From Actinomycetaceae bacterium (GTDB lineage: Bacteria > Actinomycetota > Actinomycetes > Actinomycetales > Actinomycetaceae), in NCBI GenBank assembly GCA_030538185.1, contig JAUNUK010000002.1, forward strand, positions 62,001-126,000: DNA of 64,000 bases, written 5' to 3'. Below the pieces are notes generated by a model, which ran no database searches, had not been told where the DNA came from, and saw only the letters and a list, made by a program, of their open reading frames with translations. This document shows positions 46,806-51,175 of this stretch, one piece after another. The position numbers and the translations under genes are program-made. Position 1 is the first letter of the stretch, and each line of letters starts with the position of its first letter.

Positions 46806-46825
46806 TTACTGATTCAGGTCTTAGT

Positions 46826-46860
46826 TGAGGGGTGAAGGAGTGCTAGAGCTTCACCCCTCA
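46826..46860. terminator. Strong bidirectional terminator
   Basis: A perfect 11-bp inverted repeat (TGAGGGGTGAA and TTCACCCCTCA) with a 13-base loop, lying exactly between the converging dapD and regulator genes. On the plus strand it is followed by GCTATTTCT. It can serve both directions. Confidence 0.85.
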
Positions 46861-46861
46861 G

Positions 46862-47251
46862 CTATTTCTGTACACTCGTTAGTTCCTTAAGGGCAGCAAT
46901 GTGTCCGTTAAAGGCTTCTAGGCCTTTTTCAGTGAAGGCCACCCATGTTGAGGGGTACCCTCTTTTAGCCAAACGTTTATCGATTTCCACATAGCCTGCA
47001 TCCGCTAATGCCTTAAGTTGTTTAGATAATACGGATGGAGAAACCTCAACTATCTCTTGCAAAACTACGAATTCCATTTCCTTCACGCCACTTAGGGCGG
47101 CACATATCCTGAGGCGGTTGGGCGCATGAATCAGTTCATCAAAAACCGGCTTCACTGACTTGTGAGGCAAGGCCCACGGCTTGGCTTTTCGTGGTCTGTC
47201 GTCGGAAATTTTCTGCCCAGTCTCCTTGATATTTTCCGAGGGCGCTGTCAT
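46862..47251 (-). CDS. Winged-helix transcriptional regulator
   Basis: A 129-residue regulator. After a polar 35-residue N-terminus the winged helix covers about 35-115: HAPNRLRICAALSGVKEMEF, the recognition helix in EVSPSVLSKQLKALADAGYVEI, and a wing with KRGYPSTWVAFTEKG. The pattern fits the small HTH_34/MarR-like group. The ATG overlaps the stop of the upstream membrane-protein gene (ATGA), so the two are co-translated, and the operator-like dyads at 47953-48005 are a natural target (inference). Confidence 0.85.
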   Translation of the reverse strand: MTAPSENIKETGQKISDDRPRKAKPWALPHKSVKPVFDELIHAPNRLRICAALSGVKEMEFVVLQEIVEVSPSVLSKQLKALADAGYVEIDKRLAKRGYPSTWVAFTEKGLEAFNGHIAALKELTSVQK

Positions 47252-47934
47252 GGTTTGGCCTGATTCTGGGTGTTTGCTGCGGCACTAGGTCCGTGCTCGC
47301 TGGTATCTGTGACGGCCTTTTCTTTCGGTTCTTTGTCGGCGATTTCCTTTAGGAACTCTCGTGGGGTGCGCCAAACAGATACCTTTGAGTCGTAGTACCC
47401 CAGGTTCGCTAGTTTTTCTATATATCGGATAAACCAAATGCCCGAGAAATAGAAAATAGCAAAGATAGCAGGAACGATTAGGGCGGCGATAACGTAGTGG
47501 CCATCTTCAAGTAACGGCGAATAAAAATTTGTGGCAGGAATAATCGCTGCCACGGGGATACCTCCCGCTAAGGCGCTGCGTTCGTCATATAGACGTCCCT
47601 TGCGATAAGGCAATCGGGTGTAGAACCGGATATACCACCAGAACACCAGGCATAGAAGTACCAGCATGGCCACGAACAGTGCCCACCATTGCCAACTTTT
47701 ATTTGTAAAGAAATAGCTGGTAATCAACGCTCCGGTTGAAAAGGCTGCAGCAGCGAAACTTATCACAATGACTGGCCAACGCGGCACACGTGTGCGTTCT
47801 TTTGTCTGGGCTTCGGTGTGTTCTACAGCATCCAGGGCCCAGGCTGCCTCTGATTCGCTTGCGTTCGGCGTACCGTTGGGCAAAGCAGTGTTGGTTCGAG
47901 TGTCCTGTTGGACTTTAGCGTCGTTGTTATTCAT
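47248..47934 (-). CDS. Unrecognised integral membrane protein coupled to a regulator
   Basis: A 228-residue protein of unknown function. A polar, Asn/Glu-rich N-terminal tail (about 1-50) is followed by four hydrophobic segments (WPVIVISFAAAAFSTGALI, WWALFVAMLVLLCLVFWW, a central segment around GIPVAAIIPATNFY, and YVIAALIVPAIFAIFYFSG), then a charged cytoplasmic tail rich in Lys and Glu. It has GGAGAGG before the ATG. Co-expression with a winged-helix regulator suggests a membrane partner or stress-responsive unit; there is no catalytic motif. Confidence 0.75.
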   Translation of the reverse strand: MNNNDAKVQQDTRTNTALPNGTPNASESEAAWALDAVEHTEAQTKERTRVPRWPVIVISFAAAAFSTGALITSYFFTNKSWQWWALFVAMLVLLCLVFWWYIRFYTRLPYRKGRLYDERSALAGGIPVAAIIPATNFYSPLLEDGHYVIAALIVPAIFAIFYFSGIWFIRYIEKLANLGYYDSKVSVWRTPREFLKEIADKEPKEKAVTDTSEHGPSAAANTQNQAKP

Positions 47935-47952
47935 AGCCTCTCCAACCCATGA

Positions 47953-48005
47953 TTTCTGCTATGGAATCAACTTTCCATAGCAGAAACTACTTTCCAATAT
48001 GGAAA
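47953..48005 (-). promoter_or_regulatory. Double operator with four TATGGAA half-sites
   Basis: A perfect 14-bp dyad (TTTCTGCTATGGAA at 47953-47966, repeated inverted at 47973-47986) is followed by a second dyad (TTTCC at 47991-47995, GGAAA at 48001-48005). Together they hold three exact copies of TATGGAA or its complement (47960-47966, 47973-47979, 47998-48004) and one near copy (TTCCAAT, 47992-47998). The array starts at the edge of the -10 box and runs into the leader, the arrangement of a repressor site. Confidence 0.7.
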
Positions 48006-48033
48006 CTATAAACTGGATAGCCTTACTTGGCAA
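48005..48033 (-). promoter_or_regulatory. Promoter of the membrane protein/regulator operon
   Basis: On the minus strand TTGCCA (48033-48028), a 17-base spacer and TATAGT (48010-48005) form a good sigma-70-type promoter. The 3' end of the methyltransferase gene, transcribed in the same direction, starts only 9 bases upstream of the -35 box. Confidence 0.65.
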
Positions 48034-48041
48034 GGTGATGG

Positions 48042-49874
48042 TTACGATGCGGCACGGGCATAGGCGCTGAAAAGGGCATTGAGGCGAGCTTCTTCGTCCA
48101 GGGGATCATTCTTGACTGAAAGGTCAAAAAGCCTGTCCATATAGACGTCCAGGTTTTGGTGGGCACGGCGCAGATCCTCAGGCATGGTTTTGGGGTTATA
48201 CAGCCTGTTCAGAAGTGGTTTTTTTGGACTTGTTGCTCTGGCGTCAAGAACCAGCGCTGACAGTCTTGCAAGTTCTTCGACTTGGTCCGCCACAAGCTTC
48301 GGCAGAGGGAAGTTGTTCCATACCAGGGTGTTGGAAAACCTGGGACCGCCACCCAAGGTGCCTCCCACCAGGCGAAGCCAGGTCCAAAAAATCGCAGAAC
48401 TCGCAATCGCGAAAGCCAAGCCATCGCCCATGGGACAGGTGAAGGTCGCATCCGAGGCAATCGCTCCTGCGTCCAGCACAGCAACAGGCAAATAATCCCT
48501 GTTCCCAGACACATGTCTGGGAACACACACGTAATCTTGTGCAGGTTGACGCCGGTATTGAAATAAATGCGGGGCATCAGCCGCAGCCCTAATTGCCGGA
48601 TCGCTAGAAGATTCACGCATGTGACGCACATGGTCAAAACGCCTACGTAAAAGCGCTGATGTCGTCAGTTCATCAACGTCGACCCCTTCGGCCCACAGAC
48701 AGTAGCGATGTCTGCCCGACAGCAGTTCTTGTGCGCCAATAAAGGGCCTCAACAGCGGTGAAGCCAGAGGATCACGTCGGATTTCTGCCAGTTCATCGTC
48801 GTTTTTGACCAGCAGCCCACCACCATCAGCGGGAACCGAGCCCTTCACCATGACAGGCACATCGGAGGACAAAGGAGACCCCCGACGTCGCAGATCAAGA
48901 TCTGGTCCTGGAAAAAGATAGCCATTGATGCGGTCAGGATAATGGCGCTCCGAAGCCCCATTATCTTTCATAACTACCAGTTCGGGAGGGCCTTGCGCGC
49001 CACTACTGTTATTGTCCATACCAATAACCACACAGCTCAAAGCGGCTTCATCGTGAATGGGCCAAGCAAAACCCTGGACCCCCAAAGAGATTCGCCAACC
49101 CGCCTCGAACAGAGGCCCAAAGAACCGTGAAACTCCGAGTCCACGGCTTACCGCTTGGGGGGCAATGTAGACGAAACGCCCTCGGCAATCCTGGAAGTAA
49201 TCGGTAGCTTTTTTGAACCAAGCTGTTGAGTAATCCAAGTATCCGTGTTGCGTTTTACCGAAAACCCTGGACATATCGGCCCGCTGTTGAGGGGTTTTTA
49301 GGTATTGCCCAACGAAAGGGGGATTACCCACAATCAAAACCCCTTCCGAGGGCGAAACGACCTTACTCCAGTCCATGCCAAGGGCGTTACCGCAGATAAT
49401 CTGCCTTTCAATAATTTCTGGGGCGTCTTCTCTGTAGCTCAAGGAGAGCAATGTCGTGCGGACAAGGTCATGCGCCTGGGGGTGAAGCTCGATGCCGAAT
49501 AACTGATGGACATCGACTTGGGGTTCGAGCGAAGTATCAATCTGTACCGAATGGTCTAAAAGGCGATCTAGTACCAAAGATTCAGCATGTCGCAGTTCGC
49601 TCAGGGCTTCCACCAGGAAGTTTCCGCCTCCGCAGGCAGGGTCAAAGAAACGAAGAGATCGAAGTTTAGGCAAGAGGTCCAGTAGCACGTGAGGCTGCGA
49701 ATTGGCACTATATATTTCCTGAATAATGTCTCGGAAACAAAAGCTTTGAAGTACCTCTTTGACCAGGCTGCGTGGAGTGAAGTGCATGCCGTGTTCGCGT
49801 CGTTGAGCTGCGGATAATGAGCTCAGCAGAAGGTCGCCAGCGCTGTACACGTCCGAGGGCTGAGGCGCTGACAA
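48042..49874 (-). CDS. Solitary DNA methyltransferase, MmeI-like (no nuclease domain)
   Basis: A 610-residue class I SAM-dependent N6-adenine-type methyltransferase. HGMHFTP precedes the fold; the SAM site is FFDPACGGGNFLVEAL (Asp78-Gly84) and the catalytic motif IV NPPF is at 184-187. LDYSTAWFKKATDYF, FVYIAPQAVSRGLGV and the target-recognition part RRQPAQDYVCVPRHVSGNRDYLPV with NTLVWNNFPLPK follow the MmeI/type IIG layout. Full family members are about 900 residues with an N-terminal nuclease and helical spacer; both are missing here. No restriction gene is next to it. The proposed TTG start lies 3 bases after the upstream stop; a GTG 8 codons in is an alternative. Confidence 0.78.
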   Translation of the reverse strand: MSAPQPSDVYSAGDLLLSSLSAAQRREHGMHFTPRSLVKEVLQSFCFRDIIQEIYSANSQPHVLLDLLPKLRSLRFFDPACGGGNFLVEALSELRHAESLVLDRLLDHSVQIDTSLEPQVDVHQLFGIELHPQAHDLVRTTLLSLSYREDAPEIIERQIICGNALGMDWSKVVSPSEGVLIVGNPPFVGQYLKTPQQRADMSRVFGKTQHGYLDYSTAWFKKATDYFQDCRGRFVYIAPQAVSRGLGVSRFFGPLFEAGWRISLGVQGFAWPIHDEAALSCVVIGMDNNSSGAQGPPELVVMKDNGASERHYPDRINGYLFPGPDLDLRRRGSPLSSDVPVMVKGSVPADGGGLLVKNDDELAEIRRDPLASPLLRPFIGAQELLSGRHRYCLWAEGVDVDELTTSALLRRRFDHVRHMRESSSDPAIRAAADAPHLFQYRRQPAQDYVCVPRHVSGNRDYLPVAVLDAGAIASDATFTCPMGDGLAFAIASSAIFWTWLRLVGGTLGGGPRFSNTLVWNNFPLPKLVADQVEELARLSALVLDARATSPKKPLLNRLYNPKTMPEDLRRAHQNLDVYMDRLFDLSVKNDPLDEEARLNALFSAYARAAS

Positions 49875-49876
49875 GG

Positions 49877-51175
49877 CTAGGCCCCGCGCATAATGCCGTT
49901 GAGCGATTCAAAGATTAGGGCACCTGCCACGCGGATGCCATTGTGGTGGTATTTTTCGCTAACCCAAGGGACAAGTCTGCGGATACGGGAAGCGGTGCGC
50001 AAGGATTCCTCTAGCGGCACATACATATCGGGGGCATAGACAGCTGCAGCAACAGGGACTTGATTGTCCCCTAAGGTATCCAGATCCCAGTGTGCGGGGA
50101 TGTCCCTGTCTTGGGCCAGACCGAAAGCCGCATCTTTGTATGGACGCAGGGCGGGGTCTTCATCGAAAAGCCAGGGGTATATGTGTTCGCCAGATAGGTG
50201 GAATGCTCGGTCCAGATCGCGAGGATCAGCGTCTTCTTCCATGCCTTCAAATTCTGCTCGCACGCGGTTCGCTGACCAATTGGACGCCTGACCAGGCGAC
50301 ATATAGGCAGGCTCGTGCAGGCAGGCGTACAAGGGTTGCGAGGCAAAAGACAGCTCATGCCCAAGGGCGCCCAAGAACTTCTGCGAGAGTTTGGACTGAC
50401 CGTTCCGAGATACGAAAGGTGATTCCAGCAGGTAATGAAGATTGCGGAACCTGGTCGAAGACCCAAGGCCTAGTCCCAGGGTGCGAAAACGCCTGGCAGA
50501 CAGGCCTTCGCCTGTGGGCAACAATTCTTCTTCATCTTCCAGGTGCGCACAAACCCTTCGCAGCATGGACGCATCCTGGGGATACATATCGTTGTAGGCA
50601 CCATTGCGAATAATGGTTTTTGTGTATGTGGAACGATACAGGTCATCCAGGGTTCCATCCGTGGCCTCCAGGCCCCCAGTGATCATGGAACCAAGCAGTC
50701 CCTCGGGGTGAAAAGACAGATAGCACATGGTCAAGAAACCGCCATAAGACTGACCAAAGGTGTACCACTTGGCATCCCCTTGAAGCTCTTGACGCAAGGC
50801 TTCGGCGTCGCGAATGATTGAGCGTTCCAATAAGCACTTCAGATAGTGGGTCTGGGCAGAAACGTCGCCGGCGGCAGCTAGGTGGGCAGGGTCCAGTGGA
50901 GTAGAGGCCCCGGTCCCGCGCTGGTCCATCAAAACCATGCGGTAGTGGTTTAGGGCAGCACCAATCCAGCCGCCGATGGTGTCCGGTCGATCGGCCGCAC
51001 CGCCTGGACCGCCTTGCAAATACAGCAAGCGTGGTGCTTTTTCCTGGCCAGGGCGCACAATTTCTCGGGCAAAAAGGGTGATGGGTGTGCTGTTGGGATC
51101 CTCCCAGTCCAGGGGTACCGGCATGCGGTACTCAAAAACAGTGCATCCGTCTTGGGTATAGGACAAGGTTTCCAT
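49877..51175 (-). CDS. S33 family proline iminopeptidase-like alpha/beta hydrolase
   Basis: A 432-residue cytoplasmic hydrolase. The oxyanion region is LQGGPGG, the nucleophile serine sits in TFGQSYGGFL, and the catalytic histidine in EKYHHNGIRVAG near the C-terminus; DQRGTGAST is the typical conserved loop. Expected to release N-terminal proline from peptides, but S33 members vary in substrate. It is followed by the DNA methyltransferase after only two bases and preceded by maf at 55 bases, so the three genes may be one transcript. Confidence 0.88.
   Translation of the reverse strand: METLSYTQDGCTVFEYRMPVPLDWEDPNSTPITLFAREIVRPGQEKAPRLLYLQGGPGGAADRPDTIGGWIGAALNHYRMVLMDQRGTGASTPLDPAHLAAAGDVSAQTHYLKCLLERSIIRDAEALRQELQGDAKWYTFGQSYGGFLTMCYLSFHPEGLLGSMITGGLEATDGTLDDLYRSTYTKTIIRNGAYNDMYPQDASMLRRVCAHLEDEEELLPTGEGLSARRFRTLGLGLGSSTRFRNLHYLLESPFVSRNGQSKLSQKFLGALGHELSFASQPLYACLHEPAYMSPGQASNWSANRVRAEFEGMEEDADPRDLDRAFHLSGEHIYPWLFDEDPALRPYKDAAFGLAQDRDIPAHWDLDTLGDNQVPVAAAVYAPDMYVPLEESLRTASRIRRLVPWVSEKYHHNGIRVAGALIFESLNGIMRGA

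Follow-up and report, generated by a model that had tools for sequence, protein, structure and literature searches.

An operon of an HTH_34 regulator and a four-helix membrane protein in an Actinomycetaceae bacterium, and its probable negative autoregulation through promoter palindromes, as judged from relatives

We analyzed a 64-kb stretch of DNA (64,000 nucleotides, here the window, to whose first letter all positions refer) from the 2.42 Mb genome of an Actinomycetaceae bacterium, which belongs to the same family as Mobiluncus porci. The minus strand of the window encodes a two-gene operon in which a gene for a membrane protein comes first and a gene for a winged-helix regulator second (Table 1). 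The start of the regulator gene overlaps the stop of the membrane-protein gene through an ATGA, as a preliminary description of this DNA had reported. The promoter given there, TTGCCA and TATAGT separated by 17 bases, is also present, although taken by itself such a match is no more than chance would give (1 found; mean of the shuffles, 1.4). It had been placed almost inside the end of a methyltransferase gene, and this is right: the open reading frame (ORF) ends at 48042, 8 bp ahead of the -35.

The methyltransferase (48042-49874, minus strand) is MmeI-like and of type IIG. It aligns to profile positions 297-907 of 912, thus without the N-terminal nuclease part, and looks like an orphan methyltransferase or a remnant. 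The ORF upstream of it (49877-51175) is unrelated and hydrolase-like. On the other side of the operon, an inverted repeat without a T run (GAGGGGTGAAG/CTTCACCCCTC, 46824-46862) separates the convergent dapD and regulator genes.

Table 1. Features of the operon and its promoter region (positions in the window).
Feature	Position	Strand	Remarks
-35 hexamer TTGCCA	48028-48033	-	Place where relatives carry the -35-containing operator
-10 hexamer TATAGT	48005-48010	-	Last T doubles as the operator's first base, as is most common in relatives
Main operator TTTCCATATTGGAAA	47991-48005		At the predicted transcription start; rank 1, 26.7 bits
Second, putative operator TTTCCATAGCAGAAA	47972-47986		One good and one degenerate half; rank 2, 19.6 bits
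Weak third copy TTTCTGCTATGGAAT	47953-47967		Mirror image of the 47972 copy; rank 23, 5.3 bits
Ribosome-binding site GGAGAGG of the membrane-protein gene	47937-47943	-	Read from the sequence
Membrane-protein gene	47248-47934	-	228 aa product
HTH_34 winged-helix regulator gene	46862-47251	-	129 aa product; PF13601 profile match

Three 15-bp pseudo-palindromes of the form WTTC-N7-GAAW begin at 47953, 47972 and 47991, each a step of 19 bp from the next. Two are exact TTTC-N7-GAAA and one has a terminal T. The preliminary description had seen two dyads here, with three exact and one near TATGGAA/TTCCATA words, and all of these were located (47960, 47973 and 47998, and, for the near match, the left half of the palindrome at 47991). 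It had also taken an array of TATGGAA half-sites as the recognition unit, and this had to be given up. The word is not enriched in the 64-kb window (7 found, 5.4 expected) and is not the conserved unit in relatives; what makes it stand out is clustering and dyad arrangement, not frequency. The actual element is the 15-bp palindrome TTKCC-N5-GGMAA. A palindromic matrix built from 186 sites of relatives, with the window excluded, was used to rank 63,982 window positions. The sites at 47991 and 47972 came first and second, and the next best position reached 9.3 bits. At the -35, the operator left half TTGCCA is kept and the right half is decayed (TTGCCAAGTAAGGCT; the full 15-mer scores -9.9). A second full operator containing the -35, which is common, if not universal, in the class of loci termed A below, is thus absent from the window.

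The regulator belongs to Pfam family HTH_34 (PF13601; 70.1 bits against a cut-off of 27, E=1.8e-19). The ArsR profile HTH_5 is weakly matched (29.4 bits, cut-off 22) and MarR profiles fall below their cut-offs. The top PDB match of the structure model (pLDDT 85.6) is 1UB9 (TM 0.85 of the target, rmsd 1.2), which together with the profile bears out the winged-helix assignment made earlier. Cys50, in the motif R-L-x-x-Cys, is kept in 80 of 80 loci from named genomes and is possibly a redox or metal sensor.

The pairing of the two genes is conserved. A single-protein search found the regulator in 19 of 59 related genomes. A profile of 14 regulators matched proteins in 150 of 213 genomes of the family; the weaker matches are probably other winged-helix proteins. 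A protein of two or more membrane segments ends where the regulator begins in 90 of the 96 distinct regulator loci, and at all 80 HTH_34 loci from named genomes a membrane protein lies directly upstream of the regulator; the control was passed by 1 of 410 random positions. These named loci include Mobiluncus, Glycomyces, Streptomyces, Nonomuraea, Amycolatopsis, Arthrobacter, Pseudoalteromonas and Cellvibrio, as well as metagenome-derived Woeseiaceae, Maricaulis, Planctomycetota and Gemmatimonadales, whose bin labels may be wrong. As Pseudoalteromonas isolates carry the pair, it has spread beyond Actinomycetota even if those labels err. No third gene is conserved (the commonest neighbor family occurs in 9 of the 80 loci), so the module consists of two genes.

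TTKCC-N5-GGMAA is found upstream in 31 of 82 dereplicated loci (shuffles: mean 0.13, maximum 1). The strict pattern was chosen once a first set of loci had been seen. In the named-genome set, which came later, it is found at the operon promoter in 75 of 80 loci (161 sites, shuffle mean 0.35); start sites and promoters of relatives were assigned by rule, and the upstream regions of some loci may be mis-set. The spacings between sites in the named loci cluster at 23-24, 28-29, 31-34 and 50-52. The usual array is TTTCC..GGAAA, then TTGCC..GGAAA with its left half as the -35, then TTTCC..GGAAA right after the -10. At spacings near 51, inspection by eye often shows TTGAC-N5-GGAAA in the middle position, which makes a better -35 but a poorer operator. 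Of 75 loci, 46 have TTGNCN beginning at -28 or -29 as counted from the last operator (-28 in the window), and the commonest end point of TANNNT is the operator's first base (+1 in the window). In L035, among the nearest relatives of the window, TTGCCAATTTGGCAA contains the -35, and TATAGT leads into TTGCCATATCGGCAA. Of 75 named loci, 56 have an ATG or GTG in frame within the last operator, often as Met-Glu-Ser/Thr/Asn, judged by reading frame only; for Pseudoalteromonas, a later start codon behind a ribosome-binding site looks equally good. In L149, L163, L129 and others, the operator right half ATGGAAA seemingly is the start of the membrane protein, coding for Met-Glu- (again by frame only). 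The window has a leader, without overlap of start codon and operator.

Other promoter regions show further arrangements. That of L020 contains, by eye, a very long perfect inverted repeat (arms of about 28 bp) consisting of two operators that mirror each other; the -10 is close to the loop. The membrane-gene leader of the Mobiluncus pair (L002) has a long inverted repeat (GGGGACGGTTTCGTCTTTGCT / AGCAAAGACGAAACCGTCCCC), and a possible third operator type (e.g., TACTTGCACCAAGTGAAAGTA) precedes related pairs in L093 and L098.

The preliminary description had made its proposal depend on conservation of the dyads in relatives. The 47991 type is conserved; extra copies spaced by 19 bp are not, as this spacing is absent from the relatives, and for this reason the downstream copies at 47972 and 47953 may not be operators. 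Of the two dyads as parsed there, the second (47991) stands, with a counterpart in relatives in both sequence and promoter position, and the first is better described as a good and a poor operator back to back. Because these two sites are mirror images, they form 14-nt arms (47953-47966 and 47973-47986) that are 100% complementary and 6 nt apart. Such a repeat exceeds what two operators need. It could act as an RNA leader hairpin ahead of the ribosome-binding site, with control exerted on mRNA stability or translation and with 47991 as the only operator. The predicted leader fold (-21.7 kcal/mol, z = -3.77, more stable than every shuffle) and the missing 19-bp spacing in relatives point this way. 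However, a mere hairpin arm would not be expected to rank second in 64 kb by a DNA-operator matrix from relatives, as the 47972 site does, and an exact copy of its reverse complement, TTTCTGCTATGGAAA, is present in L166 as a DNA element, at operator position with canonical spacing. In addition, with the start codon seemingly inside the last operator in most relatives, there may be no leader RNA there. We regard the hairpin as a live rival for the 47953/47972 pair, though an unlikely one; the 47953 copy in particular may be part of a hairpin instead of an operator.

Regulators at these loci fall into classes with different operators. In class A, TTKCC-N5-GGMAA is found at 26 of 43 loci and GTTTG-N5-CAAAC at none of the 43. 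Class B, defined by GNL[ST]-H in the recognition helix, has GTTTG-N5-CAAAC at 26 of 33 loci and TTKCC-N5-GGMAA at none of the 33 (Fisher p for the match of class and operator, 3e-9 and 3e-14). Both classes are probably clades, so that there are fewer independent events than loci, and the co-variation may reflect few such events. The strict motif is missing at 17 of 43 class A loci; as start sites were guessed, the upstream regions taken for some of these may be off. Six regulators are outside the class rule, and five of these six have the class A operator. The window sides with class A, with TTKCC-N5-GGMAA immediately after the -10. The strongest argument for direct reading of the palindrome by the regulator is that operator type follows the DNA-reading helix.

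The membrane partner of class B is of a different family, as 1 of 33 matches the class A partner profile. Judged by sequence, class B is a sister system with its own operator code. Examples are L045, L049, L063, L014 and L022, where the partner has about five segments and the palindrome is GTTTG-N5-CAAAC.

The membrane protein of the window scores 32.3 bits against the class A partner profile, which was built without the window and the Mobiluncus pair (controls, about 3 bits). We take it to be a true but divergent member of that family. An AlphaFold2 model from 24 sequences (mean pLDDT 70.8) has a well predicted N-terminal helix (residues 27-48) and four long membrane-type helices; conservation centers on helix 27-48 and the P-x-W that follows. 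Model and homology thus agree with the four-helix membrane protein described earlier. Neither this protein nor its 23 relatives match a Pfam family above cut-off, and a search of the PDB with the fold of this protein gave nothing at E<=0.001 (lowest E, 2.4). A weak match to MFS_1 (E 3e-4, below cut-off, in 1 of 24 members) was attributed to hydrophobicity and rejected.

The operon, the operators with their position on the promoter, and the match of operator type to regulator type all emerge from comparison of the loci. Our main reading, to which we give a probability of roughly 0.8, is that this two-gene module is under negative autoregulation, with the regulator blocking its own promoter. Autoregulation by the winged-helix regulator had been proposed before, and comparison now supports it strongly: the operator is conserved in most pair loci and its type co-varies with the DNA-reading helix. 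We infer that the regulator binds, that it does so as a dimer, and that it represses rather than activates. The HTH_34 protein would occupy the 15-bp palindrome over the start site (47991) and also sites just downstream of the start (47972 and, weakly, 47953). Bound there, it would block RNA polymerase and hold both the membrane protein and the regulator low. The operators overlap the -10, the start and the region just downstream, and so suit repression by polymerase block.

Operons of a DNA-binding regulator and a multi-helix membrane protein are also known from LytTR Regulatory Systems (HdrRM, BrsRM), which are autoregulated, widespread and mostly unstudied, and which work by positive feedback through direct repeats upstream of the -35 (PMC6193735). 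With the same gene logic, the regulator could activate its own operon and the membrane protein could inhibit it. We consider this quite improbable. LytTR sites lie upstream of the -35, whereas the operators of the module, which are palindromes, overlap the -35, -10 and start (from the -10 downstream in the window), as expected for repression. Some relatives do have a further copy, located 23 bp upstream of the one at the -35; the window lacks it. The regulator also lacks a LytTR domain, Pfam giving HTH_34 and other winged-helix matches only.

A small and probably autorepressed two-gene unit could instead be a toxin-antitoxin-like or immunity module, in which the membrane protein is harmful or protective and the regulator merely keeps it low. 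The patchy distribution (the 19 of 59 related genomes above) and occasional presence on plasmids (36 of 72,556 records) are in keeping with this. However, there is one phage record only, and comparison with defence models gave nothing beyond generic winged-helix hits. The regulator-antitoxin gene usually comes first in type II toxin-antitoxin pairs, whereas here the regulator gene is second. We judge such a module to be unlikely.

A regulon beyond the operon was not supported by a genome-wide search with the strict pattern. The host genome has 27 matches to TTKCC-N5-GGMAA (10 for the reversed control pattern), and the others lie nearly all within long, coding-like ORFs; two of these matches were inspected closely. 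The best-looking of them, TTTCCAAAATGGAAA, falls in an ORF of 189 aa, probably jag, with a yidC-like gene on one side and an rsmG-like gene on the other. Near a match at a PIN-like ORF (L109), there is no regulator/membrane pair.

Under negative autoregulation, the likeliest role of the membrane protein would be to lift repression in response to a signal, its conserved N-terminal helix keeping the regulator at the membrane. By analogy, the closest working model for such a role is SdpR/SdpI of Bacillus subtilis, also a two-gene operon of an autorepressor and a polytopic membrane protein, in which SdpI sequesters SdpR at the membrane (PMC1626106). Differences are that no SdpI profile is among the Pfam matches of the window protein or its 23 relatives, that the gene order is reversed (membrane protein first in the window), and that the module has no conserved SdpC-like partner gene nearby. 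Sequestration and its signal are speculative, and we would put sequestration at somewhat below an even chance.

Other comparisons concern the regulator. PH1061 (1UB9) is HTH_34 by profile and the best structural match, but it is archaeal and has, as far as our searches show, no studied operator or membrane partner. MarR and ArsR repressors share the winged-helix fold and palindromic sites over their own promoters, but HTH_34 fits the window regulator far better than either. A literature search, with most subscription journals outside its scope, found no paper on the module, HTH_34, PF13601 or TTTCCGTCATGGAAA, and for PH1061/1UB9 it gave unrelated papers only. Operons of an autorepressor and a membrane protein are known; the HTH_34 pair with TTKCC-N5-GGMAA palindromes is apparently unstudied.

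In a broader reading, which is possible but a little short of probable, such pairs would form a widespread and undescribed class of membrane-linked autorepressor switches, in which the membrane protein, on an envelope signal, would sequester the regulator and so free its target. Records are from Actinomycetota, Pseudomonadota, Planctomycetota and Gemmatimonadota. The promoter code would be fixed, one operator containing the -35 and the next overlapping the -10 and start; in many species, the right half of the latter (ATGGAAA) would also be the start and first codons of the membrane protein. If true, the HTH_34 family, for which we found no paper, would gain a defined DNA recognition code, and the matched second class with a different code would be useful for learning how recognition helices read DNA. 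A four-helix membrane family without a Pfam entry would gain a testable role as sensor or antagonist, and the promoter, so compact that operators take in the -35, the start site and often the start codon, would be an example of overlapping constraints.
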